From positions 496,001-560,000 of the forward strand of contig JASCNX010000002.1 of assembly GCA_029968055.1 (NCBI GenBank): a stretch of 64,000 nt of DNA. Direction: 5' to 3'. The notes below the pieces were generated by a model. That model had not been told where the DNA came from. It did no database searches and saw only the letters and a list, made by a program, of their open reading frames with translations. The translations under genes and the position numbers were made by a program. The stretch's first letter is position 1. Each line of letters opens with the position of its first letter. Origin of the DNA: Xenophilus aerolatus (GTDB lineage: Bacteria > Pseudomonadota > Gammaproteobacteria > Burkholderiales > Burkholderiaceae_C). This document shows positions 16,083 to 49,430 of the stretch, in pieces.

Positions 16083-17386
16083 CCGCCTCCACCCCCGCCG
16101 GCTTGCGCTACCAGAGCGGCTTCGGCAACGAGCACGCGACCGAGGCCGTGCCCGGCGCGCTGCCGCAGGGCCGCAACAGCCCGCAGCGCGCGCCCTTCCA
16201 GCTCTACCCCGAGCTGGTCTCGGGCACCGCCTTCACCGCGCCGCGCCACGAGAACCGCCGCAGCTGGCTGTACCGCCGCCAGCCCTCGGTGGTGTCGGGC
16301 CGCTACCAGCCCTACGCGCAGGCGCACTGGACCACCGGCGGCGATCGCGGCACGCCGCTGCCGCCCGAGCCGATGCGCTGGGGCGCGATCCCTTTTGCGC
16401 CGGGCCTGGAAGCCGACTTCGTCGACGGCATGCACACGCTGGCCGCCAACGGCGATGCCGATGCGCAGGTCGGCGTGGGCTCGCTGGTGTACCTGGCGAC
16501 GAAATCCATGGAGCGGCGCGCCTTCGTCAATGCCGACGGCGAACTGCTGGTCGTGCCGCAGCAGGGGCGCCTGGTCATCACCACCGAGCTGGGCGTGATG
16601 GAGGTCGCGCCGGGCGAGATCGCGGTGCTGCCGCGCGGCGTGCTGTTCAAGGTGGCCGTCCCCGACGGGCCGTCGCGTGGCTACGTCTGCGAGAACTACG
16701 GCGCGCAGTTCCGCCTGCCCGAGCTGGGGCCCATCGGCTCCAACGGCCTGGCGAACGCGCGCGACTTCCTCGCCCCCGTGGCGGCGTTCGAAGATGCGAG
16801 CGCGCCCTACGAGGTGGTGAAGAAATTCGGCGGCCGCTTCTGGACCGCGCCGATGAAGCACACGCCCTTCAACGTCGTCGCCTGGCACGGCAACCTCGCG
16901 CCGGTGAAGTACGACACGAAGAACTTCATGACCATCGGCTCGATCAGCTTCGACCACCCCGACCCGTCGATCTTCACCGTGCTCACCTCGCCCAGCGACA
17001 CGCCCGGCACGGCCAACTGCGACTTCGTCATCTTTCCGCCGCGCTGGCTGGTCATGGAAGACACCTTCCGTCCGCCCTGGTACCACCGCAACCTTATGAG
17101 CGAGTTCATGGGCCTGGTCTACGGCGAATACGACGCCAAGCCCGGCGGCTTCAAGCCGGGTGGCGCCAGCCTGCACAACGCGATGGTGCCGCACGGCCCC
17201 GACGAAGAGGCCTTCGAGAAGGCATCGAGCATGGACCTCAAGCCTCAGAAGCTCGACCACACGCTGGCCTTCATGTTCGAGAGCCGCTACCGCTTCATCC
17301 CGACCGCGTTCGCGCTGCAGAGCCCGGCGCTGGACGCCGACTACGCCGACTGCTGGGCCGGGCTCAAGGACCGATTCCAGGCATGA
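16079..17386 (+). CDS. hmgA: Homogentisate 1,2-dioxygenase
   Basis: The 435-residue cytoplasmic Fe(II) enzyme opens the ring of homogentisate to maleylacetoacetate. The N-terminus [13 protein letters not shown], the middle [16 protein letters not shown] and the C-terminal iron region ([20 protein letters not shown], then [17 protein letters not shown] and [12 protein letters not shown]) are all family hallmarks with the expected His and Glu residues. It sits between the DUF2783 gene (4-nt overlap) and a Bug receptor gene (4-nt overlap). No maleylacetoacetate isomerase gene is present in the window, so that step must be encoded elsewhere. Confidence 0.97.
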
Positions 17387-18354
17387 AAACCTTTGCATCG
17401 CTGCGCCGCGCGGCACTCGCCCTGGCGCTGGTTTCACCGCTGCTGGCCGCTGCGGCCGACTTCCCGGCCAAGCCGATCCGCTTCATCGTGCCCTACACCG
17501 CGGGCGGCACCACCGACCTGGTGGCGCGCACCGTCGGCCAGCGCGTGGGCGAGAAGCTGGGCCAGCCGGTCGTGATCGAGAACCGCGGCGGCGCCGGCGG
17601 CAACATCGGCATGGACGCGGTGGCCAAGGCACCCGCCGACGGCTACACCATCGGCTTCGGCGCCATCTCCACGAATGCGCTGAACCCGCACATCTACAAG
17701 TCGATGGCCTTCGATCCGCGCAAGGACTTCACGGCCATCGGCCTGCTCGGCACGTCCACCATCGTGCTCGAAGTGCCGGCCGCCTCGCCCATCAAGAGCG
17801 TGCCCGATCTCATCGCAGCGGCCAAAAAGACGCCCGGCCTGCCCTACGCCACCGCGGGCGCCGGCACGTCGATGAACCTGGCCGGCGTGATGTTCGCGCA
17901 GATGACCGGCACGCAGCTCACGCACGTGGCCTACAAGGGCAGCGGCCCGGCCATCACCGACATGCTCGGCGGCACCGTGGGCGTGATGTTCGACAACCTG
18001 CCGGCGTCGCTTCCGCACATCCAGGCCGGCCGCCTGCGCGCGCTCGCCGTGGCCGGGCCGTCGCGCTCGCCCGCGCTGCCCGAGGTGCCGACCATCGCCG
18101 AGGCCGGCCTCAAGGGCTATGCGCTGGAGCCGTGGTTCGGTGTGTACGGCCCCGCCAACCTGCCGCCCGCCATCGTGAAGACGCTCAACCAGGCCTTCAA
18201 CGAGGCCCTGGCCGAGCCCGGCATCAGGGACAAGCTGCTGCAGGCCGGCTTCACGCCCCGCGGCAGCAGCGCGGAAGACCTCGCGAAGCTCACCCAATCC
18301 GAATACCAGCGCCTCGGCGACGTCGCGCGCCAGGCCGGCATGACTGCCGACTGA
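17383..18354 (+). CDS. Bug-family (TctC-like) periplasmic receptor in homogentisate operon
   Basis: The 323-residue secreted protein has a signal peptide ending AAA and the two-lobe Bug fold ([20 protein letters not shown], then [17 protein letters not shown] and PADGYT). Bug receptors bind small carboxylates in the periplasm and either feed tripartite tricarboxylate transporters or signal. Its ATG overlaps the hmgA stop (ATGA) and fahA follows 16 nt later, so it is embedded between two catabolic enzymes and probably binds an aryl-acetate or related acid. No TctA or TctB membrane subunit is nearby. Confidence 0.9.
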
Positions 18355-18370
18355 TCCCAGGAACCGAACC

Positions 18371-19639
18371 ATGACCGCCCTCGACATCACCCACGACCCG
18401 AAGCGCACGAGCTGGGTCGCCTCCGCCAACGTGGCGGGCTGCGACTTCCCGATCCAGAACCTGCCCTTCGGGCGCTTTCGCGCGGCCGGCAGCCAGGCGG
18501 CCTTGCGCATCGGCGTCGCCATCGGCGACCAGGTGCTCGACCTGCGCGCCGCCGGCCTGGTCGACCACGACGACATGAATGCGCTGATGGCCGCGCCGGT
18601 GGCCGAGCGCCAGGCGCTGCGCCGCCGGCTGTCGGACGGCCTGGCCGCCGGCAGTGCGCAGCAGGCCGCGTGGTCGAAGGCGCTCGTCGCCCAGTCGGCC
18701 TGCGAATTCGCGGTGCCGTGCAAGGTCGGCGACTACACCGACTTCTACACCAGCGTGCACCACGCCACCAACATCGGCCGCCAGTTCCGCCCCGACAACC
18801 CGCTGCTGCCCAACTACAAGTGGGTGCCCATCGGCTACCACGGCCGCGCGAGTTCGCTCGTCGTCAGCGGCACGCCCATCAAGCGGCCCCAGGGCCAGAC
18901 CAAGGCGCCCGATGCCGCCGAGCCGAGCTTCGGCCCCTGCAAGCGCCTGGACTACGAGCTCGAGCTGGCCTGGTTCATCGGCCAGGGCAACGCGCTGGGC
19001 GCGCCGGTGGGCATCGACACCGCGGAGCAGCACCTGTTCGGCGTCGCCCTCTTCAACGACTGGTCGGCGCGCGACATCCAGGCCTGGGAATACCAGCCGC
19101 TGGGGCCGTTCCTGTCGAAGAATTTCGGCTCCACCGTCTCGCCGTGGATCGTGACGATGGAGGCCCTGGCGCCCTTCCGCGCGCCCTTCACGCGGCCCGA
19201 GGGCGACCCGCAGCCGCTGCCTTATCTCGACGGTGCCGACAACCGTGCGCAAGGCCACATCGCCATGACGCTGGAGGTTCTGATCCAGACCGCGAAGATG
19301 CGCGCCGAGGGCCAGGCGCCGACGCGGCTCACGCGGGGCCAGCTCGAGGACGCGGCCTACTGGACGCCCGCGCAGCTCGTGGCGCACCACACCGTCAACG
19401 GCTGCAACCTGCAGCCCGGCGACCTGTTGGGCTCGGGCACGCTGTCGGGCCCCACGCCCGACGCCGCCGGCTCGCTCACCGAGCTCAGCGTGGGTGGCAA
19501 GCAGGCGTTCACTTTGCCCAACGGCGAGCAGCGCACCTTCCTGCAGGACGGCGACACGCTGATCCTGCGTGGCTGGTGCGAGCGCGAGGGCGCGGTGCGC
19601 ATCGGCCTGGGCGAGGCGAGCGGCACCGTCGTCGCCTGA
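18371..19639 (+). CDS. fahA: Fumarylacetoacetase
   Basis: The 422-residue enzyme hydrolyses fumarylacetoacetate to fumarate and acetoacetate, the last step of the homogentisate pathway. Active-site features match the eukaryotic-type FAH: DYTDFYTSVHHATN (metal Asp at 124, catalytic His at 131), the Glu pair in DYELELAWF and the Asp in FNDWSARDIQ. Length also fits full FAH rather than the shorter fumarylpyruvate hydrolases. It ends the operon and is followed by a strong hairpin terminator shared with the convergent Bug gene. Confidence 0.96.
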   Translation: MTALDITHDPKRTSWVASANVAGCDFPIQNLPFGRFRAAGSQAALRIGVAIGDQVLDLRAAGLVDHDDMNALMAAPVAERQALRRRLSDGLAAGSAQQAAWSKALVAQSACEFAVPCKVGDYTDFYTSVHHATNIGRQFRPDNPLLPNYKWVPIGYHGRASSLVVSGTPIKRPQGQTKAPDAAEPSFGPCKRLDYELELAWFIGQGNALGAPVGIDTAEQHLFGVALFNDWSARDIQAWEYQPLGPFLSKNFGSTVSPWIVTMEALAPFRAPFTRPEGDPQPLPYLDGADNRAQGHIAMTLEVLIQTAKMRAEGQAPTRLTRGQLEDAAYWTPAQLVAHHTVNGCNLQPGDLLGSGTLSGPTPDAAGSLTELSVGGKQAFTLPNGEQRTFLQDGDTLILRGWCEREGAVRIGLGEASGTVVA

Positions 19640-19714: not shown

Positions 19715-20689
19715 TCAGTCGACCTTCGCGCCCGAGTCCTTCACCAGCTTGCCCCAGCGCGGAATGTCGTCGCGGATCAGCTTGGCGAAGTCGGCCGCGC
19801 TGCTGCCCTGCACGTCGGCGCCCTGGCCCGCGAGCTTCTGCTTGAGCACCGGGTCCTGCAGCGCCTTGTTGATGTCGGCGTTGAGCTTGGCCACGATGTC
19901 CTTGGGCAGGCCGGCCGGCCCCGCGATGCCGAACCAGGTGATGGCGTCGAAGCCCTTGTAGCCCGATTCGGCCACCGTGGGCACCTGCGGCAGGTCGGGG
20001 GCGCGCTGCAGCGAGGTGAGGGCCAGCGGCCGCATCTTGCCGGACTTGATGTGCGCCTGCAGCGTGGGCACCGAGGACACGTACAGCTGCACCTGGCCGC
20101 TGATCACGTCGGTGATGCCCTGGGCCGCGCCCTTGTACGGGATGTGCGTGAGCCTGATGCCCGCGGCCTTCTGGAAGGACTCCATCGCCAGGTGCGACAC
20201 CGTGCCGCTGCCGGACGATGCGTAGTTGATGCTCTCGGGCTTGTCCTTGGCCGCCTTCACCAGCTCGGCCAGCGTCTTGTAGGGCGTGGCGGTGCCGGCC
20301 ACGATGACCAGCGGCGAGGTCGCCACCAGGCTGATCGGGGTCAGGTCCTTCACCGGGTCGTAGGGCAGCTTGGCGTAGAGCGTCGGGTTGATCGCCAGGT
20401 TGCTGGTCTGGCCCAGCACCAGCGTGTAGCCGTCGGGCGCGGCCTTGGCGGCGGCGTCCACGCCCAGGTTGCCGCCGGAGCCCGGCTTGTTGTCGACCAC
20501 GAAGTTGTAGCCGTAGCTGGTGAGCTTGTGGGTCAGCTCGCGGGCGATGATGTCGGTGCCGCCGCCGGCCGGGAAGGGCACGACGAGGCGGATCGGCCGG
20601 GCGGGCCAGGTCTCGGCGCGGGCGACCGAGGCAGCGGCGAAAAGGGAAAGGGCGGCGAGCGCCAACGCGGCGCGGCGGGATGTCTTCAT
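19715..20689 (-). CDS. Bug-family periplasmic receptor
   Basis: A 324-residue receptor with a signal peptide ending ARA, the typical start RPIRLVVPFPAGGGTDIIAREL, then DNKPGSGGNLGVDAAAKAAP and the C-terminal WGKLVKDSGAKVD. It is transcribed alone, divergent from an IclR regulator whose start is 108 bp away. Its promoter is almost the same as that of the nine-gene operon beginning at 30161, so it is probably induced by the same signal and may supply that pathway's substrate. Confidence 0.9.
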   Translation of the reverse strand: MKTSRRAALALAALSLFAAASVARAETWPARPIRLVVPFPAGGGTDIIARELTHKLTSYGYNFVVDNKPGSGGNLGVDAAAKAAPDGYTLVLGQTSNLAINPTLYAKLPYDPVKDLTPISLVATSPLVIVAGTATPYKTLAELVKAAKDKPESINYASSGSGTVSHLAMESFQKAAGIRLTHIPYKGAAQGITDVISGQVQLYVSSVPTLQAHIKSGKMRPLALTSLQRAPDLPQVPTVAESGYKGFDAITWFGIAGPAGLPKDIVAKLNADINKALQDPVLKQKLAGQGADVQGSSAADFAKLIRDDIPRWGKLVKDSGAKVD

Positions 20690-20734: not shown

Positions 20735-20786
20735 GCACTCTAGGTGGGGGTTTCAATCCATACAATGTCGTTTCGTCCAGCGAACC
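20735..20786 (-). promoter_or_regulatory. Promoter and putative IclR operator of the Bug gene (copy 1)
   Basis: Read on the minus strand, an operator-like GGACGAAACGACATTGT overlaps a -35 TTGTAT, followed by exactly 17 nt and a -10 TAGAGT. The same arrangement occurs at 30202-30253 (ACGAAACG, TTGTGA, 17 nt, TAGAGT). On the plus strand TACAAT at 20761-20766 could serve as -10 of the divergent iclR gene, so regulator and target would share one control region. Confidence 0.65.
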
Positions 20787-20796
20787 GAGGTCCGAC

Positions 20797-21561
20797 ATGC
20801 GCAACGACGTTCCCCCTGAAGACAGCCCCGCCGAGCGCGGCGACGGCGGCGTGATCGCGGTCACGCGCGCCCTGTCGCTGATGGAGGCCTTCGAAGTCGG
20901 CGAATCCGCCCTCAGCCTGGCCGAGCTGAGCCGCCGCAGCGGCATGCACAAGACCACCGTGCTGCGCCTGGCACGCACGCTGGCGCAGTCCCACTACATG
21001 GTGCAGACAGACGCCGGCCAGTGGCGGCTCGGGCCGGCGGCCGGCTGGCTGGGTGCCCGTTACCAGGCCGGCTTCGACGTCAACAACGTGGTCGAACCGG
21101 CGCTGCACGACATGGTGCGGCTGACAGGCGAGAGCGCGTCCTTCTACGTGCGCGAGGGCGACATCCGGTCCTGCGTGGCGCGGGTGGAGGGACCGCAGTC
21201 GGTGCGGCACAACGTGCGCATCGGCGAGCGCCTGCCGCTGGACCGCGGCGCGCCGGGCCGGGTGATCCTGGCCTTCAGCGGCGCCAAGGGCGAGCCCTAC
21301 GAATCCATCCGCACCTGCGGCTACCAGATCTCGATGGGCGAGCGCGAGGCCGAGGTCTCCAGCGTGGCGGCGCCGGTGTTCCGCACCGGCTGGCACCTGC
21401 TGGGCTCGATGTGCATCTCGGGCCCCAGCTCGCGCCTCACGCGCGAGCGGCTGGAGCAGTACGCCCAGAGCGTGGTGGCGGCCGCCAACCAGCTGTCGTA
21501 TGCGCTGGCCGGCGGGCGCTCGCCGGCGACGCCGCCGGTGGTCTCACGCTGGCATCCCTGA
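20797..21561 (+). CDS. IclR-family regulator of the nine-gene operon (inferred)
   Basis: The protein has 254 residues from the ATG at 20797; the longer reading crosses the promoter. The N-terminal helix-turn-helix is clear (ALSLMEAFEVGESALSLAEL, then RSGMHKTTVLRLARTL), followed by an IclR ligand domain. It is divergent from a Bug gene and convergent, with only 4 nt between stops, with the nine-gene catabolic operon. Matching promoter/operator modules in front of the Bug gene and of the operon make this regulator the best candidate for both, probably as an activator since the operator lies just upstream of -35. That role is inferred. Confidence 0.88.
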   Translation: MRNDVPPEDSPAERGDGGVIAVTRALSLMEAFEVGESALSLAELSRRSGMHKTTVLRLARTLAQSHYMVQTDAGQWRLGPAAGWLGARYQAGFDVNNVVEPALHDMVRLTGESASFYVREGDIRSCVARVEGPQSVRHNVRIGERLPLDRGAPGRVILAFSGAKGEPYESIRTCGYQISMGEREAEVSSVAAPVFRTGWHLLGSMCISGPSSRLTRERLEQYAQSVVAAANQLSYALAGGRSPATPPVVSRWHP

Positions 21562-21565
21562 AGGC

Positions 21566-22480
21566 TCAGCGCCGCGCCAGCGGCAGCCCGGGCACGTCCA
21601 TCTCGGCCATCATCACGCAGCCGTGCGTGGAGTCGGTGACGAACACCGTGCGCCGCTCCGGCCCGCCGAAGGCCAGGTTGGTGATGGAGGCGCCCGCGGG
21701 GCCGCGCAGCACCTGCACCGGCTCGGCCCGCGTGTTGAGCACCCACAGGTAGCCCAGGCCCGGGTTGGCCACCAGCACGCGGCCCTGCGCGTCCACGGCC
21801 AGGCCGTCGGGGCCGCTGGGGCCGTAGGAGGTGAAGAACTGGCTCACCTTCGACACGCTGCCGTCGGGCAGCAGTGGCACGCGCCAGACGCAGTTGCCGC
21901 GCGTCACCGCCAGGTACAGCACCTTCTCGTCGGGCGACAGCGCCACGCCGTTGGGGCTGGGGATGTTGTCCAGCAGCAGGTCCAGCCGGCCTTCGGGCGA
22001 CAGGCGGTAGAGCCGGCCTGTGGGGTCGTGCAGCCCGGTCTGGCCCTGGTCGGTGAAGTACAGGTTGCCCGCGCGGTCGAAGACCAGGTCGTTCACGCCC
22101 TTGAAGCGCTCGCTGTTGCGCCGTGCCAGGAAGGGCGAGACGCGGCCGCTGGCCACGTCCAGCTGCATCAGGCCGTTCTTGTAGTCGGTGATGAGGATCG
22201 TGCCGGCATCGAGGAACTTCATGCCGTTGGGTTCGCCGTCGTACTCGGCCACCAGCGACCAGCGGCCCTGCGGATCGATGCGGAAGACGCGGCCCCAGGG
22301 GATGTCGGTGACGTACAGGTTGCCGGCCTCGTCGAAGACCGGCCCCTCGAGGAAGGAATCGGTGGGCGTGCCGCCGCGGTTGGCATCGGCCCAGTCGCTG
22401 CGGCGCGGGCGGCGGAATTCGTCGGGCATGGCGCTGAACAGCGTGAGTTCGCGCACCTGGGGCGGTTGGAGGAGGAACAT
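21566..22480 (-). CDS. SMP-30/gluconolactonase-like lactonase
   Basis: The 304-residue protein is a six-bladed beta-propeller of the SMP-30/gluconolactonase/LRE family: EGPVFDEAGNLYVTDIPWG with the metal Glu, GVNDLVFDRAGNLYFTD with Asn and Asp ligands, and SPNGVALSPDEKVLY. The start at 22480 has a GGAGGA ribosome-binding site (complement of 22468-22476). No signal peptide is present, so it is probably cytoplasmic and opens a sugar-acid or aliphatic lactone. It is the last gene of the operon that starts at 30161 and lies 16 nt after the second amidohydrolase. Confidence 0.88.
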   Translation of the reverse strand: MFLLQPPQVRELTLFSAMPDEFRRPRRSDWADANRGGTPTDSFLEGPVFDEAGNLYVTDIPWGRVFRIDPQGRWSLVAEYDGEPNGMKFLDAGTILITDYKNGLMQLDVASGRVSPFLARRNSERFKGVNDLVFDRAGNLYFTDQGQTGLHDPTGRLYRLSPEGRLDLLLDNIPSPNGVALSPDEKVLYLAVTRGNCVWRVPLLPDGSVSKVSQFFTSYGPSGPDGLAVDAQGRVLVANPGLGYLWVLNTRAEPVQVLRGPAGASITNLAFGGPERRTVFVTDSTHGCVMMAEMDVPGLPLARR

Positions 22481-22496
22481 GGGTCTGCGCTCGTTG

Positions 22497-23393
22497 TCAG
22501 GAGGATGGCACGGGGCCGAAGTCGTAGAGCTTCGCCGGGTTGTCGACCAGGATGCGCGCGAGCCGCTGGGCATCGCCTTCGCACCAGCGGCCGAGCAGGT
22601 CGACCAGTGCGGCGTCGTCCACGCTGCCGGGCGTCTCGGTGGTGTGGGGCCAGTCGCTGCCCCACACCAGGCGTTCGGGTGCGCGGCGCACCAGCGCCTG
22701 CCCGGCGGCCAGGGTGTCGTCGTAGCCCGGACCGCCCACCGAAGAACGCATATAGGCGCCCGACAGCTTGACCCAGGTGTTGCCCGCATCGAGCAGGCTG
22801 CACAGCAGGTCGAAGGCTTCGCCGCTCGCACCCTGCGCAGGGTCGAGCCGCGCCATGTGGTCCACCACCAGCGGCACCGGCAGCCCGCGCAGCAGCGCGG
22901 CCATGGCCAGCAGTTGCTCCGGATGCACGAAGACCTGGATGTGCCAGCCCAACGGTGCGGCCTTCGCAGCCAGCGTGGCGAGCATCTGCGGCGTGGTCGT
23001 GCCCCAGGACTGCGGCGTCACGAAGTTGACGCGCAAGCCACGCACGCCCAGGGCGTGCAGGCGCTGCAGTTCGGCCGCATCCACGCCGGCATCGACCACG
23101 GCCACGCCGCGTGCGGCCTCGCCCAGCTGCGCCAGCGCGTCGAGCGTGCAGGCGTTGTCGGTGCCGTAGGTGGAGGGCGTGACGACCACGGCGCGCTGCG
23201 TGCCCAGGCGCGCCTGCAGCTGCCGATAGGCCGCCACCGGCGCAGCGGGCGGCTGGCGCTTCCAGTGCGTCGACGGCGCGAAGCGCGGGTCGAAGATGTG
23301 CATGTGGCTGTCGCAGGCCAGCGGCGGCAGTGCGGCACTCATGCCAGCGCTCCAGGGCGCGTCGACATCGATCGAAGGGCCGCGAAGCGGCAC
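22497..23393 (-). CDS. PDC-hydrolase/galactarolactone-isomerase-like amidohydrolase (copy 2)
   Basis: The 298-residue TIM-barrel amidohydrolase has HxH metal ligands in CDSHMHIFD (H30 and H32), VVVTPSTYGTDN, the WVKLSGAY segment and a late Asp in VWGSDWPH. These fit the COG3618/LigI group, which acts on lactones such as 2-pyrone-4,6-dicarboxylate or galactarolactone. The GTG at 23393 is preferred over an ATG at 23342: a GAGGAAG ribosome site precedes it and its extra residues (PWSAG) align with PFSAG in the paralogue at 29205-30161. It lies 16 nt after a Bug gene and 16 nt before the SMP-30 gene. Confidence 0.85.
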   Translation of the reverse strand: MPLRGPSIDVDAPWSAGMSAALPPLACDSHMHIFDPRFAPSTHWKRQPPAAPVAAYRQLQARLGTQRAVVVTPSTYGTDNACTLDALAQLGEAARGVAVVDAGVDAAELQRLHALGVRGLRVNFVTPQSWGTTTPQMLATLAAKAAPLGWHIQVFVHPEQLLAMAALLRGLPVPLVVDHMARLDPAQGASGEAFDLLCSLLDAGNTWVKLSGAYMRSSVGGPGYDDTLAAGQALVRRAPERLVWGSDWPHTTETPGSVDDAALVDLLGRWCEGDAQRLARILVDNPAKLYDFGPVPSS

Positions 23394-23409
23394 GGGGGGT
23401 GCTTCCTCA

Positions 23410-24381
23410 TCAGTCCAGCTTGATGTCGCCCTTGCGCACCACCTCGCCCCACTTGGCGCCTTCCTTCTTCAGGAAGTCGGCGAAGGCCGCTGGGGTGGAG
23501 CCGACCGGCTGCGCGCCGAGGTCCTTCATGCGCTGCTGCACCTCGTCGTCCTTCAGCACCTCGGCCAGGGCCTTCTGCAGCTTGTCGGCGATGTCCTTGG
23601 GGGTCTTGGCGGGCAGCAGCATGCCGTTCCATTCGGAAGCTTCATAGCCCGGCACGACCGTCTCGGCCACGGTGGGCACATCGGGCAGGCGCGGCGAGCG
23701 CTGCGGCGAGGTGGCCGCCAGCGCGCGCAGCTTGCCGGTGGACACCAGCGGATAGCTGGCCGCCACGGTGGCGAACATGAAGTCCACCTGGCCCGCCATG
23801 ACGTCGGTGATGGCCGGGCCGCCGCTCTTGTAGGGCACGTGCACCATGTCCAGCCCCAGCTTCTGGCGGAACAGCTCGGCCGCCAGGCGCTGCACCGTGC
23901 CGCTGCCGCCCGAGGCGAAGTTGATTTTGCCGGGCTTGGCCTTCGCCGCGGCCACCAGCTCCGCCACCGTCTTGTACGGCGAGTCGGCCTTGGTGATCAG
24001 GATGTTGGGCATCGTCAGCACCAGCGACAGCGGTTGCAGCGCATCGGCCGCATAGGGCATGCGCGGGAACAGGTGCGGGTTGATGGCGTAGGGCGTGGCG
24101 TCGTAGAGCACGGTGTAGCCGTCGGGCGCGGCCTTGGCCGCATAGGCCGCACCGATGGTGCCGCTGGCGCCGGCGCGGTTGTCGACGATCACGCTGGTGC
24201 CCAGCTTGGGGCCGAGCTTGGCGGCCAGCACGCGGGCCACGGCATCGGCGGCACCGCCGGGCGCATAGGGCACGACGATGGTGATGGGGCGCTCGGGGTA
24301 GGCCGCATGCGCGGCGAGGGCCGCCGTCGCCAGGCTGGCGACGAGCAGGCGACGGATCAACGAGAAGGGGGCAGCGGCCAC
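23410..24381 (-). CDS. Bug-family periplasmic receptor
   Basis: The receptor has 323 residues from a GTG at 24381, which follows GGAG at a good distance; an upstream GTG at 24429 has no ribosome site. A signal peptide (LIRRLLVASLATAALAAHA) precedes the Bug start RPITIVVPYAPGGAADAVAR, then DNRAGASGTIGAAYAAKAAP and a C-terminal EVVRKGDIKLD. It is one of three Bug receptors in this operon and closest in wording to the one at 28222 (both have TIGAAYAAKAAP or TIGAAYVAKAAP), so the pair may be duplicates. Confidence 0.88.
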   Translation of the reverse strand: MAAAPFSLIRRLLVASLATAALAAHAAYPERPITIVVPYAPGGAADAVARVLAAKLGPKLGTSVIVDNRAGASGTIGAAYAAKAAPDGYTVLYDATPYAINPHLFPRMPYAADALQPLSLVLTMPNILITKADSPYKTVAELVAAAKAKPGKINFASGGSGTVQRLAAELFRQKLGLDMVHVPYKSGGPAITDVMAGQVDFMFATVAASYPLVSTGKLRALAATSPQRSPRLPDVPTVAETVVPGYEASEWNGMLLPAKTPKDIADKLQKALAEVLKDDEVQQRMKDLGAQPVGSTPAAFADFLKKEGAKWGEVVRKGDIKLD

Positions 24382-24489
24382 AGGCAGATCTCCGGAGTCA
24401 TGGATGAAAGTGGAAAAGGACGGCAGCACGGGCGGCTGCCTTGGTCGGAACGGGCAACGGCAGGCGACGGCGGCGAGGGCCGCCCGCCT

Positions 24490-25485
24490 TCACTCGGGCT
24501 TGAGGTCGAGCTCGCGCGCGAGCTGGCCATAGGCCTTGACCTCGCGCTCCAGCTGCGCGCCGAAGTCGGCGCCGCACACGTGCTGGCCCTCCATGCCCAG
24601 GCCGCGCAGCTTCTCCTGCGTGGCGCCCTGGCGCACGAAGTCCTGCGCGGTCTTCTGCAGCACCGCCAGTGCGGCGGGCGGCGTGCCCGCAGGCGCCAGC
24701 AGGCCGTACCAGGCATCGGCCCGGTAGCCCTTGACGCCCGCCTCGTCGAAGGTGGGCACCTGCGGCAGCAGCGGCGAGCGCTGCGGCGCGGCCACGGCCA
24801 GCGCCGTGAGCTTGCCGGCCTGCACCTGCGGCAGCACCGATCCCAGGGTGGCGAAGGAGCTGTCGACCTGGCCGCCGACCAGGTCGGTGACGGCCTGCGC
24901 CGCGCCCTTGTAGGGGATGTGGTTCATGCGCGTGCCGGTCAGCCGCGTGAACTGCTCGCTGGCGAAATGCCCCGAGCTGCCGGCGCCGGGCGTGGCATAG
25001 GTGCGCCGGCCCGCCTCGGCCTTGACCTGCTGCAGGAAGGCGGCGAAATCCGGCACCTTCATCGACGGACCCACCACCAGCACCGTGGGGCTCACCGCCA
25101 GGCTGCACACCGGCGCGAAGGAGCGCACCGCGTCGAACTTGACCCGGCTGCTGTAGAGCGCCGGGATCATGGTGTGGTTGGTGGCGCCCAGCAGCAGCGT
25201 GTAGCCGTCGGCCGGCGCGCCGGCCACGGCCTCGGCCGCGAGGATGGTGTTGGCGCCGGGCTTGTTGTCCACCACGAAGGGCTGGCCCAGCGTGCGCGCG
25301 GCGTAGTCGGCGAAGGCCCGCGCCACCACGTCGGTGGGGCCGCCGGCCGAGAAGCCGACGACCAGGCGCACGGGCTTGGCGGGGTAGGCCGGTGCCTGGG
25401 CGCGTGCGGAGCCGGCCGCCAGTGCGCAGGCGGCGAACATGCCGGTGGCAAGAAGGCGCGAGGCCTTGAGCGACGGGGTGTTCAT
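24490..25485 (-). CDS. Bug-family periplasmic receptor
   Basis: A 331-residue receptor with a signal peptide ending ARA, followed by KPVRLVVGFSAGGPTDVVAR, DNKPGANTILAAEAVAGAPA and a NHIPYKGAAQAVTDLVGGQV segment typical of Bug ligand-binding clefts. Its sequence differs clearly from the other two receptors of the operon, so it may bind a different acid. The start lies 4 nt after the MBL lipoprotein stop. A 108-nt space, which contains no gene, separates it from the next receptor. Confidence 0.9.
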   Translation of the reverse strand: MNTPSLKASRLLATGMFAACALAAGSARAQAPAYPAKPVRLVVGFSAGGPTDVVARAFADYAARTLGQPFVVDNKPGANTILAAEAVAGAPADGYTLLLGATNHTMIPALYSSRVKFDAVRSFAPVCSLAVSPTVLVVGPSMKVPDFAAFLQQVKAEAGRRTYATPGAGSSGHFASEQFTRLTGTRMNHIPYKGAAQAVTDLVGGQVDSSFATLGSVLPQVQAGKLTALAVAAPQRSPLLPQVPTFDEAGVKGYRADAWYGLLAPAGTPPAALAVLQKTAQDFVRQGATQEKLRGLGMEGQHVCGADFGAQLEREVKAYGQLARELDLKPE

Positions 25486-25489
25486 GGCG

Positions 25490-26509
25490 TCAGGGCAGCA
25501 GGGCGAAGCGGTCGCGCTGGGCCAGGGAGCATTCGTTCATCACGGTCAGCGTGCGCTCCACCGTCGGCGTGCCCACCACGAAGGGGTTGGGGCCGGTGCC
25601 ACCCGCTTCGCGCAGCCGGGCCAGCTTGCCCTGCGAGCCGTCCACGCGCGAATGGTTGGACAGCATCACGTCGATGCCCTCGGCGCGCGCGACCTGCGCC
25701 ATGCGCTGGGTGGAATGGCCATAGGTCTCCATGCGCGGGATGTCGGCGCCGAAGTTGAAGCCCGTGCCGCCCCACAGCAGCACGCGGTGCTTGCGGCCCT
25801 GCGAGCTGACGTCGAACACCGGCGACAGCGTGCCCCAGGTGTGGCCGGGTGTCACGTACAGCGTGAGGGTGGTGCCGCCCAGGGTCAGCTTGTCGCCGTC
25901 CTTGACGCTGATGTCGCGCTTGGGCGGCGCGCCCCAGATGGGCGTGGCGAATTCCAGCCGCGTTTCCATCATGGTCCAGTCGATGTCGCTCATGACCACG
26001 CGGGCGCCGTACTTCTGCGCCAGGTAGGGCGCACCGCCGTAGTGGTCGCCGTGGCCGTGGGTGACCACGATGTAGCGGATGCGCGCCGGGTCCAGTCCCA
26101 GCTTGCGCATGCCGCCCTCGATCAGCGCGGTGGCCTCGACCTGGTTGTTGAGGGCGTCGATCAGGATGATGCCCTCGGGCGTGTCGACGGCCCAGGCACT
26201 GGCCCAGTCGCCGCCCACGAAGTACAGGTTGTCGAAGGCGCGGCCGGGCGGGGGTGCCGGGCGGGCGATCAGGGCGCGCAGGCCGCGGTCGGCGGCCTCG
26301 TCCTGCACCGGCCGCGCGGTGGGCACCGGCTTGCACAGCGTCAGCACCTCGCCCAGGTCGCTGCCCGCCGCACGCGTGGCGGCTGCGACGTGCGCCGCGA
26401 TGCTGGCCTCGGACGGACGCTGCGCCGCCGGCGGTGGCGTGCTGGCGCAGCCCCACAGCGCGGTGGCGAGCGCGGCCACGAGCAGGCCGCGCGAAAGTCG
26501 ATGGGTCAT
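25490..26509 (-). CDS. MBL-fold lipoprotein, subclass B3-like
   Basis: The 339-residue exported protein has a lipobox LWGC (C21) and a complete metallo-beta-lactamase metal set: HGHGDH at 151-156, H223 in TPGHTWGT and H286 in SNHSRVD. This pattern, without a Cys ligand, is closest to subclass B3 enzymes and related periplasmic hydrolases. It sits inside a catabolic operon between a hydroxyacid dehydrogenase and a Bug gene, so lactone or ester hydrolysis in the periplasm is more likely than a role against antibiotics; that is inference. Confidence 0.85.
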   Translation of the reverse strand: MTHRLSRGLLVAALATALWGCASTPPPAAQRPSEASIAAHVAAATRAAGSDLGEVLTLCKPVPTARPVQDEAADRGLRALIARPAPPPGRAFDNLYFVGGDWASAWAVDTPEGIILIDALNNQVEATALIEGGMRKLGLDPARIRYIVVTHGHGDHYGGAPYLAQKYGARVVMSDIDWTMMETRLEFATPIWGAPPKRDISVKDGDKLTLGGTTLTLYVTPGHTWGTLSPVFDVSSQGRKHRVLLWGGTGFNFGADIPRMETYGHSTQRMAQVARAEGIDVMLSNHSRVDGSQGKLARLREAGGTGPNPFVVGTPTVERTLTVMNECSLAQRDRFALLP

Positions 26510-26582
26510 GGTCTTGTCTCCTTGTGGATGGGGCCGTCGTCGCTGGCGCCTGGCGGGCTGCCGCGCCGCCCGGCGGCGGAAC

Positions 26583-27497
26583 TCAGCCGCGGTCGAGCAC
26601 GGCCAGCAGGTTCTTCGCTGCCGCTACGCCCATGTTGACGTAGGCGTCGCTGGTCACGCCGCCGATGTGCGGGCTCAGCACGATGCGCTCCTGGCCCTGG
26701 AAGGGGTGGCCGGCGGTCATCGGCTCCACCGCGAAGCTGTCCAGGCCGGCGCCGGCCACCTGGCCCGAGCGCACGGCCGCCAGCAGCGCGGCCTCGTCGA
26801 TCAGGCCGCCACGCGCGGTGTTGACCACGATCACGCCGCGCTTGCACTGGGCCAGCGTGTCGGCATTCAGCATGCCGCGGTTCTCGTCGGTCAGCGGGCA
26901 GTGCAGCGAGATCACGTCGGCCTCGCGCCAGATCGTCGCCAGGTCCGCGGTCCGGATGGTGTCGGGCAGGTTCTTGGCGAAGGGGTCGAAGCCGATCACC
27001 CGCATGCCGATGGCATCTGCCATGCGCGCGAAGCGCTGGCCGATGGCGCCCAGGCCCACCAGGCCGACGGTGCGGCCGCCCAGTTCCAGGCTCTTGTGCG
27101 TGGCCTTGTCCCAGTGGCCGGCATGCATGCGCGCGTCCAGCGGCACCACCGACTTGGCGCAGGCCAGCATCAGCGCCAGCGCTTGCTCGGCCACGGCCGC
27201 GGCGTTGGCGCCGACGGCCGCCACCACCTCGATGCCGCGTGCCTTGGCGGCCACCTTGTCGATGGTGTCGGTGCCGCTGCCGTGCTTGGAGATGACCTTG
27301 AGCGAAGGCGCCGCATCCATCATCTCGGCGCTCACCTTGCCGTAGCGCACGATGATCGCCACCGGGTCGTGGCGCTTGCACAGCGCGATCAGGTCGTCCT
27401 CGGTCGGCGTCTTGCCGGCGTAGACCACCTCCATGTTCTTCAGCAGGGCCAGGGCCTGGGGTGCCAGGTCGGCACCCGTCACGAGAACGGTACTCAC
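26583..27497 (-). CDS. D-2-hydroxyacid dehydrogenase (NAD)
   Basis: The 304-residue enzyme of the D-3-phosphoglycerate-dehydrogenase-like family starts at a GTG at 27497 that overlaps the stop of the upstream RraA-like gene by four bases. The nucleotide motif is VGLVGLGAIG (144-153), and the catalytic trio is R229 (NTARGG), E258 (VEPM) and H277 (SPHIGG). It should oxidise a 2-hydroxyacid or reduce a 2-oxoacid in the cytoplasm. The pairing with an HMG/RraA-type aldolase suggests handling of an aldol product or of its 2-oxo precursor. No regulatory ACT domain is present, so it is not a classic SerA. Confidence 0.9.
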   Translation of the reverse strand: MSTVLVTGADLAPQALALLKNMEVVYAGKTPTEDDLIALCKRHDPVAIIVRYGKVSAEMMDAAPSLKVISKHGSGTDTIDKVAAKARGIEVVAAVGANAAAVAEQALALMLACAKSVVPLDARMHAGHWDKATHKSLELGGRTVGLVGLGAIGQRFARMADAIGMRVIGFDPFAKNLPDTIRTADLATIWREADVISLHCPLTDENRGMLNADTLAQCKRGVIVVNTARGGLIDEAALLAAVRSGQVAGAGLDSFAVEPMTAGHPFQGQERIVLSPHIGGVTSDAYVNMGVAAAKNLLAVLDRG

Positions 27498-28180
27498 AAC
27501 GCTTCCCCTTCCTTCAGAACGCCGGCCGCACGCAGCGCGGCGGGCAGCCACTTGGAGGCGGTGTCGCCGCGCGAGATGGCGTCCAGGCGGGCGGCCTCGT
27601 CGGCCACTTTCTTGTCGGCCAGGGCCAGCATGGAGGGCGCCTTCGCGCGCTCGATCACGACCACGCCGTCGGCATCGCCCACCACCAGGTCGCCCGGGTT
27701 GACGCTGGCGCCACCGGCCGAGATCGGATGGTTGATGCGGCCGGGCACGAACTTGGTGGGGCCGGCCGGGTTGAAGCCGGCGCTGAAGACCGGGAACTCC
27801 AGCTCCAGCAGCTCCAGCTTGTCGCGGATGGCACCGTCGACGATCACGCCGGCCAGGCCGCGCTTCTTGCAGGCGCTGAGCATCAGCGTGCCCATCAGCG
27901 CGGCGGTCTGGTCGCCCTTGCCGTCGATCACCAGCACGTCGCCGGGCTTCGCCAGCGCGATGGCGGCATGGATCATCAGGTTGTCGCCGGGCCGCACTTC
28001 GACGGTGAAGGCCGGGCCGGCGACGATCATCTTGTTGTCCACCGGCGCGACGCGGGCGTTCATGGTGCCGCGGCGACCGGCCACGTCGGCCAGGATGGCG
28101 GCCTGGAAGGTCTTCGCCTTGGCGACGACCTCGGGGGCGACACGCTCGATGTCGCGGATGATTTCTGGGAGTTGGCTCAT
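27494..28180 (-). CDS. RraA-family protein, likely HMG/CHA-type aldolase
   Basis: The 228-residue protein has the RraA/HMG-aldolase fold: LVIDGKGDQTAALMG and the substrate-metal motif IVDGAIRD (113-120) with the Arg and Asp used by 4-hydroxy-4-methyl-2-oxoglutarate/oxaloacetate aldolases, then FPVFSAGFNP. Residues up to 228 exceed the 160 or so of RNase-E inhibitor RraA, which favours the aldolase group. In a catabolic operon it would cleave a 4-hydroxy-2-oxo acid to pyruvate and a second product. The stop overlaps the next gene by four bases. Confidence 0.87.
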   Translation of the reverse strand: MSQLPEIIRDIERVAPEVVAKAKTFQAAILADVAGRRGTMNARVAPVDNKMIVAGPAFTVEVRPGDNLMIHAAIALAKPGDVLVIDGKGDQTAALMGTLMLSACKKRGLAGVIVDGAIRDKLELLELEFPVFSAGFNPAGPTKFVPGRINHPISAGGASVNPGDLVVGDADGVVVIERAKAPSMLALADKKVADEAARLDAISRGDTASKWLPAALRAAGVLKEGEAL

Positions 28181-28221
28181 GGCGTTGGCTCGGTTCGTGA
28201 GAGGAGAGAAGGAAGAAGGAA

Positions 28222-29208
28222 TCAGTCGGCCTTGATGCCACCCTTGCGGATGACCTCGGCCCACTTGGCGGAGTCGGACTTCTGCAGCGCGCCCAGCTGC
28301 GCAGGCGTGCCGCCCACCAGGTTCACGCCCAGCTTGTCGGCCAGCGCCACCAGGTCGGGCGTCTTGAGGGCGGCATTGATCTCGCGGTTGAGGCGATCGA
28401 CGATGGGCGCCGGCGTGCCGGCCGGCGCAAAGACGGCCTGCCACTGCTCGACGACGAAGTCCTTGATGCCGGTCTCGGCCATGGCGGGCACATCCGGCAG
28501 GGGCTTCAGGCGCGCGGCCGAGGTGACGGCCAGCGCGCGCAGCCGGCCGGACTGCACATGCGGCAGGGCCGCAGCGGCCGGCGCGAACATGAAGTTCACC
28601 TGCTCGCCCAGCGTGTCCTGCAGCGCGGGCGTGTCGCCCTTGTAGGGCACGTGGACGAAGCGGGTGCCCGTCTGCTGCGCCAGCAGCTCGCCCTGCATCT
28701 GCAGGATGGTGCCGGTGCCGCCCGAGGCGAAGGCCAGCCTGCCCGGCTGGGCCCTGGCCGCGGCCAGCAGCTCGGCCACGCTGCGGTAGGGCTGGTTCGC
28801 GCCCACCACCAGGATGTGCGGGATGGTGCCGATGATCGCCACCGGCGCGAAGCCGCCGATGGGGTCGTAGGGCAGCTTGCCCATGAGGTGCGGCGCGATG
28901 GCCTGCGGGCCGATGGAGGTGCCCAGCAGGGTGTAGCCGTCGGGGGCGGCCTTGGCGACGTAGGCCGCGCCGATGGTGCCGGTGGCGCCCGCGCGGTTGT
29001 CCACGATGACGTTGGTGCCCAGCGTGCCGGACAGTTGCTGCGCCACGGCGCGGCCCAGCACGTCGGTGCTGCCGCCGGGCGGGTAGGGCACCACCCAGGT
29101 GATGACGCGGCCGGCGGGCCAGTCGCCCTGGGCCCGGACGCTGCCGGCGGCCACCAGGGCGCCGGCAGCGGCAATAAGGGAGCGGCGGGTCAGGGAAGGC
29201 GGGGTCAT
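28222..29208 (-). CDS. Bug-family periplasmic receptor
   Basis: A 328-residue receptor whose ATG at 29208 overlaps the stop of the first amidohydrolase (ATGA). The export signal begins LTRRSLIAAAGALVAAG, so Tat-type export is possible. Bug landmarks are GRVITWVVPYPPGGSTDVLG, DNRAGATGTIGAAYVAKAAP and a C-terminal WAEVIRKGGIKAD. It is the first of three receptors in the operon. 41 nt separate it from the RraA-like gene. Confidence 0.9.
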   Translation of the reverse strand: MTPPSLTRRSLIAAAGALVAAGSVRAQGDWPAGRVITWVVPYPPGGSTDVLGRAVAQQLSGTLGTNVIVDNRAGATGTIGAAYVAKAAPDGYTLLGTSIGPQAIAPHLMGKLPYDPIGGFAPVAIIGTIPHILVVGANQPYRSVAELLAAARAQPGRLAFASGGTGTILQMQGELLAQQTGTRFVHVPYKGDTPALQDTLGEQVNFMFAPAAAALPHVQSGRLRALAVTSAARLKPLPDVPAMAETGIKDFVVEQWQAVFAPAGTPAPIVDRLNREINAALKTPDLVALADKLGVNLVGGTPAQLGALQKSDSAKWAEVIRKGGIKAD

Positions 29209-30161
29209 GTCTCGTTGTCTCCTTGCTGTTCTTGAAGCGGCCCGAAGCCGTACAGCGCGGCCGGGTTGTGCACCAGCACCTGCGCGAACAGCTCGCCGCC
29301 GCCGGTCCACTGCGCCAGCCGGTCGAGCTGTCGCGCGTCGTCGGGCAGCGGCTGCAGGCCGGCCGAGGCGGTGGCATGGGGCCAGTCGCTGCCCCAGACG
29401 ACGCGCCCGGGCGCGGCATCGAGGAAGCTGCGGGCCAGCGCATCGAGCGCGGGATCCTCGGTGCGGTGCTCAGGGCTCACCAGGTAGCCGCCCGACAGCT
29501 TGATCCAGGCCCGGCCGGCGCGCAGCAGCTCCAGCACCATGGCATGCGCAGGGTGGCGGCCGGCATCGGCGGGCGACAGCCGCGCGAAGTGGTCGAACAC
29601 CAGCGGCACGGGCAGCGCCGCCAGCACGGCGGCCTTCGCCTGCAGCACATCGGCCGGCATCAGCAGCTGCAGGTGCCAGCCCAGCGGGGCGATGCGCTGC
29701 GCGACGGGCATCAGCATGTCCGCATGCGTGCCCACGCCCAGCGAGAGGTTCAGCCGCACGCCGCGCACGCCCAGGGCGTGCAGGCTGTCGAGCTCGGCGT
29801 CGGGTTCGGTGCCGTCGATCACGGCCACGCCGCGCGCATCGGCGCCGAAGGCGGCCAGCGCCTGCAGCATCGGACGGTTGTCGCAGCCGTAGGTGGAGGG
29901 GGTGACGACGACGGCACGGCGCAGCCCGGTGCGCTGCTGCAGGCGGCGGTAGTCGGCCACGCTCGCATCGGGCGGCGTCAGGCGCGCGCCGGGCACGACG
30001 GGAAACCGGGCGTCGTACACGTGCAGGTGCGCATCGCACGCACCGGGCGGCAGGGCCGTGGCGGGGGGCTGCGTGCCGGCGGAGAAAGGAACGGTGCGCC
30101 CGGCCACGGCAGCGCAGGCCGGAAGCGGCTGCGTCGTGCGTGGGGCCAGGATGGACTGCAT
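29205..30161 (-). CDS. PDC-hydrolase/galactarolactone-isomerase-like amidohydrolase (copy 1)
   Basis: The 318-residue protein leads the nine-gene operon. It shares with the protein at 22497-23393 the blocks ACDAHLHVYD (H45, H47), AVVVTPSTYG, LHALGVRGVRLN, WIKLSGGY and VVWGSDWPHAT, so the two are paralogues of the COG3618/LigI amidohydrolase group. The family opens or isomerises lactones without always needing a metal. Having two in one operon suggests consecutive lactone intermediates or two stereoisomers. The start ATG at 30161 lies about 40 nt after the predicted -10. Confidence 0.87.
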   Translation of the reverse strand: MQSILAPRTTQPLPACAAVAGRTVPFSAGTQPPATALPPGACDAHLHVYDARFPVVPGARLTPPDASVADYRRLQQRTGLRRAVVVTPSTYGCDNRPMLQALAAFGADARGVAVIDGTEPDAELDSLHALGVRGVRLNLSLGVGTHADMLMPVAQRIAPLGWHLQLLMPADVLQAKAAVLAALPVPLVFDHFARLSPADAGRHPAHAMVLELLRAGRAWIKLSGGYLVSPEHRTEDPALDALARSFLDAAPGRVVWGSDWPHATASAGLQPLPDDARQLDRLAQWTGGGELFAQVLVHNPAALYGFGPLQEQQGDNET

Positions 30162-30201: not shown

Positions 30202-30253
30202 GGACTCTAGACAGCCGTTGCGTCAGTCACAATACCGTTTCGTTCTGAGAAAC
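30202..30253 (-). promoter_or_regulatory. Promoter and putative IclR operator of the nine-gene operon (copy 2)
   Basis: On the minus strand the inverted repeat GTTTC-N7-GAAAC lies just upstream of -35 TTGTGA, 17 nt and -10 TAGAGT. The layout matches that in front of the Bug gene at 20689: the CTCTAG block and the operator block are 19 nt apart in both copies and the shared CGTTTCGT is identical. This is a typical position for an activator that contacts RNA polymerase at -35. Confidence 0.65.
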
Positions 30254-31960: not shown

Positions 31961-33226
31961 ATGGCCCCCCTTTCCTCTTCATCGTCTGCCGCACGTCCCA
32001 CCCTCCTGCTCGTCGGTGGCGGCATCGGCGGCATGGCCGCCGCCCTGGCGCTGGCACGCCTGGGCGTGTCGGTGGACCTGCTCGAGCAGAGCAGCGCCAT
32101 CGGCGAGATCGGTGCCGGCCTGCAGCTCGGGCCCAACGCCTTCGCCGCGCTCGACGCGCTGGGCGTGGGCGAGGCGGTGCGCCGCGGCTCGGTCTTCACC
32201 GAGCGCCTGGTCATGATGGACGCCATCGACTGCAGCGAGGTCGCCTCGGTGCCGGTGGGCGAGGCCTTCCGAAAGCGCTTCGGCAACCCCTACGCCGTGA
32301 GCCACCGCGCCGACCTGCACGGCGCCATCCACCAGGCGGTGCTCGCCCATCCGCTCATCCGCCTGCACACCTCGGCCCACGTCGAGGCGCTGGAGATCGG
32401 CACGCCCGGCGTGCTGGCCGTCACCCGCGACGGCCGGCGCTTCAGGGCCGATGCGATCGTCGGCTGCGACGGCGTCAAGTCGGTCGTGCGCGGCCACCTG
32501 GTGGGCGACGCGCCGCGCGTCTCGGGCCACGTGGTCTACCGCGCCGTGGTCCCGGTGGCCGACATGCCGGCCGACCTGCGCTGGAACGCGCCCGTGGTGT
32601 GGGCCGGACCGAACTGCCACCTCGTGCACTACCCGCTGCGCGACGGCCAGCAGTACAACCTGGTCGTCACCTTCCACAGCCGCGAGCACGAGCAGTGGGG
32701 CGTCACCGAAGGCAGCCAGGCCGAAGTGATGTCGTACTTCGAGGGCGTGCACGCGCGGCCGCGCCAGCTGCTGGACCGCCCCACCTCGTGGCGCCGCTGG
32801 AGCACCGCCGACCGCGACCCGATCGAGCGCTGGGGCGAGGGCCCCGCCACGCTGCTGGGCGACGCGGCGCATCCCATGATGCAGTACCTCGCGCAGGGCG
32901 CCTGCATGGCGATCGAGGATGCGGTCACGCTGGGCGAGGCGGTGAAGGCCTGCGACTTCGACCTGCCCGCCGCCTTCCGCCTCTACGAGTCGGCCCGCGT
33001 GGCGCGCACCGCCCGCGTGGTGCTGTCGGTGCGCGAAATGGGGCGCCTGTACCACGCCAAGGGCGTGGAACGTCTCGTGCGCAACAGCCTCTGGGTGGGC
33101 CGCACGCCCGAACGCTTCTACGATGCGGTCGAGTGGCTGTATGCGTGGCGTCCCGAGCGTTGCCTGGACGATGCGCCCGCAGCGCTTTGCCCGGCCGCGC
33201 CGGTGCCGGCCGCCACCGCCGCGTGA
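31961..33226 (+). CDS. FAD monooxygenase, 3-hydroxybenzoate 6-hydroxylase/salicylate hydroxylase-like
   Basis: The 421-residue class A flavin hydroxylase has LLLVGGGIGGMAAALALARL at the FAD site, the DG motif IVGCDGVKS and the GD motif LLGDAAHPMMQYLAQGACMA, the last being very like 3-hydroxybenzoate 6-hydroxylases. The ATG at 31961 follows a CAGGAGA ribosome site; an upstream start would add an Arg-rich tail. The likely product is gentisate, but no gentisate dioxygenase is in the window. It leads an operon with two Bug genes, an FAD oxidoreductase and a VOC protein. Salicylate or 6-hydroxynicotinate-type substrates remain possible. Confidence 0.85.
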   Translation: MAPLSSSSSAARPTLLLVGGGIGGMAAALALARLGVSVDLLEQSSAIGEIGAGLQLGPNAFAALDALGVGEAVRRGSVFTERLVMMDAIDCSEVASVPVGEAFRKRFGNPYAVSHRADLHGAIHQAVLAHPLIRLHTSAHVEALEIGTPGVLAVTRDGRRFRADAIVGCDGVKSVVRGHLVGDAPRVSGHVVYRAVVPVADMPADLRWNAPVVWAGPNCHLVHYPLRDGQQYNLVVTFHSREHEQWGVTEGSQAEVMSYFEGVHARPRQLLDRPTSWRRWSTADRDPIERWGEGPATLLGDAAHPMMQYLAQGACMAIEDAVTLGEAVKACDFDLPAAFRLYESARVARTARVVLSVREMGRLYHAKGVERLVRNSLWVGRTPERFYDAVEWLYAWRPERCLDDAPAALCPAAPVPAATAA

Positions 33227-49348: not shown

Positions 49349-49430
49349 GGGGCCTTCCTTTGCTTGCGGGCGCACCGCGCGGCGGCGGTGCGGATGCGCT
49401 TCATTCTTGGGAGGGCGGGCGCGGGCGGCT

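Follow-up and report, generated by a model that had tools for sequence, protein, structure and literature searches.

What kind of acid might be consumed by a bacterial operon that joins an RraA-type aldolase and a D-2-hydroxyacid dehydrogenase to two amidohydrolases, another predicted lactonase and three periplasmic receptors of the Bug (TctC) family? The question is raised by nine minus-strand genes, running from position 30161 to position 21566 in a 64,000-nucleotide stretch of the Xenophilus aerolatus genome (5.1 Mb; contig JASCNX010000002.1, positions 496,001 to 560,000) that we refer to as the window. An earlier note, made from the DNA letters, had named these gene families and their order and had proposed a complete route in which a lactone-forming acid is taken up, two lactones or stereoisomers are opened, a 2-hydroxyacid is oxidised or reduced and pyruvate is the end product. 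The open reading frames (ORFs), Pfam and NCBIfam confirm the nine genes, their families, their order and their packing with 4-nt overlaps or small gaps. The proposed route is right in outline and partly supported: a single catabolic unit with lactone opening, 2-hydroxyacid oxidation and a pyruvate-forming cleavage fits our results. The two-lactone route is not central, lactonase-type genes being optional; the outline misplaced the centre and missed a regulator, its operators and a fourth Bug gene. The reading that we prefer, with a probability of roughly 0.55, is that the locus represents a catabolic regulon under the control of IclR, made of a core of two enzymes and a lactone-opening layer that is optional; the binding of IclR, the direction of the dehydrogenase, the reaction of the aldolase and the substrate are all predicted.

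The genes in the operon are, in order of presumed transcription, AH1, BugA, RraA, HADH, MBL, BugB, BugC, AH2 and SMP-30. AH1 and AH2 encode Amidohydro_2 proteins, the three Bug genes TctC (Bug) receptors, RraA an RraA-like protein, HADH a D-isomer-specific 2-hydroxyacid dehydrogenase, MBL a metallo-beta-lactamase-fold protein and SMP-30 an SMP-30 protein. The core enzymes are RraA (27494-28180; PF03737, 159.6 bits), a class II pyruvate aldolase/decarboxylase by type, and HADH (26583-27497, GTG start; PF02826 and PF00389), the D-2-hydroxyacid dehydrogenase. Their genes overlap by 4 nt, as do those of AH1 and BugA, and the remaining intergenic gaps measure 4-108 nt. That these two enzymes form the core can be seen from loci sampled with HADH as the query. 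Among 300 genomes of the order that were searched, 15 (the source genome included) gave matches with E <= 1e-80, in 13 of 135 genera; at most seven candidates were scored per genome, and a gene counted as absent is one absent from the 16-kb stretch. RraA lies directly beside HADH, and a Bug gene is present, in all 14 loci other than the source (14/14 in each case), and an IclR gene is found in 12 of them; SMP-30 occurs in six, an amidohydrolase in four and a cyclase in three. Eight of the 14 have no amidohydrolase, SMP-30 or cyclase gene in the 16-kb stretch. This sample is fairer than the set of 94 loci described below, which favours amidohydrolase-bearing clusters because AH1 was the query.

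The core without lactonases also resides on plasmids, for which 5 of 80 matching records were examined. Plasmids of Pantoea vagans and P. agglomerans carry IclR-RraA-HADH, and a plasmid of Enterobacter roggenkampii carries the same genes behind a permease gene of the major facilitator superfamily (MFS), a similar MFS gene being located ~4 kb from the core in P. vagans. The plasmid RraA proteins (L155, L156 and L159) are 56-59% identical to that of the window, with a PF03737 score of 155.1 bits in L155, and their genes are annotated as "diguanylate cyclase". The plasmid IclR proteins are only 35-39% identical, with no operator of the window's type (GTTTC-N7-GAAAC) nearby, and a near-match search for the Enterobacter core in E. 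coli genomes gave no match. Because RraA-HADH occurs in the absence of lactonases in these eight HADH-sampled loci and on the plasmids, we regard the system as a two-enzyme core with optional ring-openers: its heart is an importer, HADH and RraA, usually with IclR, and the amidohydrolases, SMP-30 and the extra Bugs are an added layer. Such a build in two layers, with a fixed core and with exchangeable importers and ring-openers, has a minimal form for which purifying two enzymes would suffice to test the pathway.

Within the genus the whole arrangement is well kept. AH1 (29205-30161; PF04909, 141.3 bits), the first gene of the operon and a predicted lactonase, has an orthologue of at least 81% identity (81-89%) in ten of the other 14 genomes of the genus, and eight of these ten have all nine gene types in the same order; the other two either lack MBL (L029) or are broken by a contig end (L025). 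Since orthologues and order are both kept across these genomes, the arrangement is not a product of chance. AH1, AH2, RraA, HADH and SMP-30 are 81-97% identical in the same-genus stretches. The middle receptors are BugB (24490-25485; PF03401, 213.6 bits) and BugC (23410-24381 or, the start being unsure, 23410-24429; PF03401, 250.9 bits when scored as 23410-24402) in five stretches and two other Bugs, only 40-49% identical, in four (L021-L024), where the flanking enzymes stay 85-95% identical. As judged from these identities, receptors are exchanged beneath fixed enzymes.

The gene set is conserved beyond the genus as well. The loci found with AH1 number 94, of which 79 come from named genomes (from the best 80 matches of a longer list) and 15 are plasmid stretches (from 62 matching records); many gene names in the unannotated stretches rest on chosen reading frames, some of which were checked with Pfam or NCBIfam. 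An amidohydrolase, RraA, HADH and SMP-30 occur together in one cluster in 41 of the 94 loci: 28 have two amidohydrolases, six have one plus a gene of the PF04199 cyclase family, which replaces AH2 in some relatives, and seven have one only. The gene order that the earlier note had suggested searching for in other Burkholderiales is not unique to the window; it recurs widely in the Comamonadaceae loci examined and has close variants in Alcaligenaceae. As to transport, 35 of the 41 clusters have Bugs and no MFS gene, and six have MFS permeases. Clusters of the MFS type were seen in Herbaspirillum, Noviherbaspirillum, Paraburkholderia, Caballeronia, Trinickia, Bradyrhizobium and Azospirillum, and 13 of their 14 amidohydrolases begin with a twin-arginine-like N-terminus, which by the same loose pattern is mostly absent from the Bug-type clusters of Comamonadaceae; L064, L066 and an additional gene in L062 are exceptions. 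The ring may therefore be opened before uptake in the MFS-type clusters and after it in the others.

The regulon extends beyond the nine genes. We also assign to it iclR, which is convergent with the operon, and Bug0, the fourth Bug gene, on the grounds of a common operator and of synteny in relatives. The IclR-family regulator (20797-21561, plus strand; PF01614 and PF09339) is convergent with SMP-30 and divergent from Bug0 (19715-20689, minus strand), a TctC-family receptor, so that the three receptors counted earlier are indeed those of the operon and the regulon has at least four. The search pattern GTTTC-N7-GAAAC was taken from the motif GTTTCTCAGAACGAAAC, located at 30237-30253, 75 nt before AH1. 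At a tolerance of one mismatch it finds two sites in the 64 kb of the window, the source site itself with no mismatch and a second site with one mismatch at 20770-20786, between iclR and Bug0 and 10 nt before iclR (no strand is assigned to either site); shuffled sequences gave a mean of 0.28 sites, and 1 of 100 shuffles gave two. The second site and the relatives supply the independent evidence for the operator, the first site being the one from which the pattern was derived. In 59 relative loci (1.13 Mb) there are 62 sites, 53 of which precede AH1, Bug0 or iclR at a distance of no more than 350 nt (matches below 55% identity being discarded in the placing of genes), as compared with two sites in 584 kb of sequence shuffled by single bases, from 30 of the 59 loci. 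The 53 are not as many independent cases, since some loci represent one genome counted twice (L024/L033, L025/L034, L027/L073 and L028/L035; L022 and L023 also gave identical numbers).

Most of the Acidovorax, Comamonas and Delftia loci examined have iclR divergent from Bug0-AH1-BugA-RraA-HADH-Bugs-AH2-SMP30 and the operator between them. Among the HADH-sampled loci the operator lies beside iclR in 9 of 14 and was not found in L144-L146, L150 and L152. A strict palindrome test, which called for seven of eight matching pairs, detected nothing at either promoter of the window, and a promoter scan of the operon region gave no promoter-like site. The spacing of the operator corresponds to the GTT-11-AAC class of IclR sites, and PMC8222616 describes this as one site class and reports IclR factors that co-regulate COG3618 and COG3181 genes. 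Taken with the packing of the genes, the operators suggest that the unit is apparently co-regulated, with IclR as the protein predicted to bind them.

The proposed chemistry draws on the residues of the core enzymes. HADH has the motifs GLGAIG (GxGxxG), NTARGG, AVEP and SPH together with the NAD domain PF02826, and we take the last three motifs to provide the functional Arg, Glu and His. RraA keeps N71, H75, G101, R123, D124, G144 and K147 of 3NOJ, the HMG/CHA aldolase of P. putida, the catalytic R123 and the metal ligand D124 being R119 and D120 in the numbering of the window's RraA (residue roles according to PMC5065237). A D-2-hydroxyacid would be taken up with the help of a Bug receptor in the periplasm or, in other bacteria, by an MFS permease, and oxidised by HADH to a 2-oxo acid, which RraA would convert by retro-aldol cleavage or beta-decarboxylation to pyruvate and another central metabolite. 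Opening the hydroxyacid's lactone forms would be the task of AH1, AH2 (or, in its place, a hydrolase of the PF04199 cyclase family) and SMP-30, and the extra Bugs would widen uptake.

Hints to the substrate come from genes that accompany RraA in certain relatives. HADH is absent from two Methylobacterium plasmid loci, where a YdiJ-type D-2-hydroxyglutarate dehydrogenase (1466.9 bits in the one scored; cut-off 1350) and a DUF1932 protein occur with RraA. In Ramlibacter, YdiJ (1501.3 bits) directly precedes AH1, and two HADH-type genes lie on the two sides of the cluster; the genome of the window has no YdiJ over the cut-off. Among the acids tested, D-2-hydroxyglutarate was the sole substrate of YdiJ from E. 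coli and Pantoea ananatis, and SerA makes this acid from 2-oxoglutarate (PMC9504171). The residues of RraA, the motifs of HADH and the YdiJ neighbours together suggest that a D-2-hydroxyglutarate-like acid is oxidised and then cleaved by RraA. A di- or tricarboxylate fits as well because of transport genes in single relatives, TctAB beside the Bugs in one (L076) and a CitMHS citrate-type symporter in another. The best-fitting substrate would be a C5-dicarboxylate similar to 2,4-dihydroxyglutarate. Such an acid should form lactones readily, and its 2-oxo form would be of the type cleaved by HMG/CHA aldolases, HMG and CHA both being C4-substituted 4-hydroxy-2-oxoglutarates.

We can extend this proposal, as a possibility that is itself doubtful, to a pathway that would occur in Beta-, Alpha- and Gammaproteobacteria and in which acids of the 2,4-dihydroxyglutarate type and their gamma-lactones would be taken up, oxidised by SerA-like dehydrogenases and, as 4-hydroxy-2-oxoglutarates, split by RraA to pyruvate. 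If this were true, a large number of proteins currently annotated as "RraA family", or even as "diguanylate cyclase", would be aldolases of this pathway. The regulon in any case is a defined and widely conserved setting in which unassigned RraA proteins can be assigned together with SerA-like dehydrogenases, COG3618 amidohydrolases and several orphan Bug receptors.

Several observations weigh against the preferred reading, and some of them lend themselves to other explanations. RraA scores 137.2 bits with the LigK model TIGR02798, below its cut-off of 304.5, and differs from 3NOJ at positions 102, 145, 195 and 199 (T, P, K and D in the window protein), the change at 199 being E to D with an E next to it. 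A DUF1932 relative is paired with RraA without HADH in L072, and the DUF1932 protein, instead of YdiJ, may be what replaces HADH in Methylobacterium. A terminator-like hairpin at 24440-24422 separates BugB from BugC, though the two terminator-like sites in 10 kb are not above the 2.7 expected by chance. The nearest NCBIfam and PDB relatives of HADH are phosphoglycerate dehydrogenases and glyoxylate/hydroxypyruvate reductases, which could mean that the enzyme works as a reductase on a cleavage product such as hydroxypyruvate or glyoxylate, with RraA acting on a 4-hydroxy-2-oxo acid that would come straight from the opening of a lactone. This we consider unlikely in view of the eight of 14 loci that have RraA and HADH with no lactonase-type gene in the stretch and of the YdiJ-type FAD/Fe-S dehydrogenase in the Methylobacterium clusters that lack HADH.

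A sugar acid might also be the substrate, in which case lactones of 3-deoxy-aldonic acids or of aldaric acids would be opened, HADH would give a 2-keto-3-deoxy acid and RraA would release pyruvate and an aldehyde. Sugar lactones are substrates of SMP-30 and COG3618 lactonases, and in L152 (9002-12845) the neighbours of the Bug0-RraA-HADH core suit a sugar acid: a Bug gene, a gene for a Gfo/Idh dehydrogenase and, on the opposite strand, one for an IlvD/Edd-type dehydratase. The MFS genes of relatives score best with the HpaX and D-galactonate transporter models, below the cut-offs, and the GTT-11-AAC class of sites is linked to sugar and sugar-acid genes in PMC8222616. We nevertheless think this rather unlikely: among the nine genes there is neither a sugar dehydrogenase nor an acid-sugar dehydratase, and receptors of the tripartite tricarboxylate transporter (TTT) type, CitMHS and YdiJ in relatives suggest carboxylates.

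The third possibility is that RraA serves as a beta-decarboxylase. HADH would then oxidise a 3-substituted D-malate, which might for example derive from opened isocitrate-type lactones, and RraA would decarboxylate the resulting oxaloacetate. Such a scheme agrees with the minimal core, for which two enzymes suffice, with the CitMHS neighbour in one relative and with the decarboxylation of oxaloacetate by HMG/CHA aldolases that is reported in PMC5065237. D-malate is not used by the YdiJ enzymes of E. coli and P. ananatis, however (PMC9504171), and we regard this scheme as quite unlikely.

The optional layer raises the separate question of whether the operon is a copy of the protocatechuate 4,5-cleavage/gallate route (LigI, LigJ and LigK), with which it shares superfamilies, namely an amidohydrolase-fold lactonase and an RraA-type pyruvate aldolase together; LigJ, too, we take to be an Amidohydro_2 protein, in line with the two found here. 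The closest solved relatives of AH1 are LigI (4d8l), which is the nearest, and 4mup. Both AH1 and AH2 (22497-23393, GTG start, the long start being backed by the N-termini of relatives) contain all of LigI H31, H33, H180, D248 and R124, presumably the amidohydrolase core. At LigI R130, Y156 and R217, which we take to be the substrate residues and whose roles were reportedly described by Hobbs et al. 2012, AH1 has S/L/L and AH2 has Q/F/M. The same genome encodes a protein that does have R/Y/R, the LigI-like amidohydrolase L135 (C3:347745-348614), located one Bug gene from a canonical LigK (C3:349710-350375; 382 bits, cut-off 304.5) on another contig than the operon. Since AH1 and AH2 are without the three residues that the LigI-like protein keeps, 2-pyrone-4,6-dicarboxylate is an unlikely substrate for either. 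The operon also differs in having no ring-cleavage gene among the nine and in the added HADH and SMP-30. We therefore rejected the canonical LigI/J/K pathway, and find a copy of it very improbable here.

The earlier note had described the amidohydrolases as paralogous, and both are Amidohydro_2 proteins; they are not a recent pair. In a quick LG+G4 tree with long branches and no bootstrap, from which L033 and L034 were left out as repeats, AH1 and AH2 fall into separate clades of 35 and 24 rows that are not sisters, each with an SH-aLRT of 99, and a recent tandem duplication was rejected for this reason. Their scores with the 4-sulfomuconolactone hydrolase model NF042924, 140.5 and 171.7 bits, are below its cut-off of 500. 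SMP-30 (21566-22480), a beta-propeller of the SMP-30/gluconolactonase family and likewise a predicted lactonase, scores well above the gathering score of PF08450 (152.6 bits against 26.3), and its best solved relatives, 7ris and 8djf, are named lactonases.

Other known systems resemble the operon in part. The structure 4mup, which we take to be D-galactarolactone isomerase, has Q at the first HxH position, where AH1 and AH2 have H; oxidative uronate clusters presumably combine COG3618 amidohydrolases with SMP-30 lactonases, whereas the nine genes include no uronate dehydrogenase, cycloisomerase or dehydratase. The L-ascorbate cluster of Cupriavidus necator is said to bring together gluconolactonase-family and amidohydrolase-superfamily lactonases with a PdxA-type decarboxylation; the lactonase types are alike, and the operon has RraA and HADH as its core instead. 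Of the IclR regulogs with COG3618, section 15 of PMC8222616 names none with an RraA-HADH core. The earlier note knew of no described pathway with this gene set, and our literature search, with subscription papers mostly outside its scope, likewise returned no description of it among the matches listed. As far as that literature goes, the locus is an undescribed, conserved and apparently co-regulated catabolic module built from known enzyme families.

The accessory proteins of the operon can be described more briefly. All three operon Bugs, including BugA (28222-29208; PF03401, 242.2 bits), belong to PF03401, and no TctAB genes are found among the nine. The genome of the window has 109 TctC (Bug) matches versus 6 TctA matches (one of them weak); most Bugs must therefore share membrane parts or do something else. 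Bug0 has several similar scores with solved relatives, which single out no ligand class. MBL (25490-26509) is a B3-like MBL-fold lipoprotein with a lipobox-like LWGC and the motif HGHGDH; it scores 127.1 bits with the subclass B3 model NF033105, below the cut-off of 240. It is the least conserved member, present in 8 of the 12 stretches L021-L032 and in 4 of the 94 loci, and the only copies among the loci examined are those of the same genus and of Acidovorax sp. CCYZU-2555. A role in defence was considered and rejected, PADLOC giving no match.

Rfam and tRNA scans of the 64-kb window gave no matches, and the other genes of note in and around the loci are of varied kinds. In a 1.8 Mb genome (G040, locus L150) HADH-RraA occurs with TctA and a Bug, with no IclR or lactonase gene in the stretch and with a DctP (TRAP-type) receptor gene near. 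The Methylobacterium nodulans cluster has next to it (L118, 15917-20672) genes for a DASS symporter, a CoA transferase, a citryl-CoA lyase and another amidohydrolase. In the window itself, 3-hydroxybenzoate 6-monooxygenase (31964-33226) and the large subunit of anthranilate 1,2-dioxygenase (48062-49375), both over their cut-offs, belong to other aromatic pathways. The regulon is adjoined at 16022-19639 by hmgA (homogentisate 1,2-dioxygenase, 652.8 bits) and a fumarylacetoacetase gene, and both of these families are represented near the core in L141 as well.

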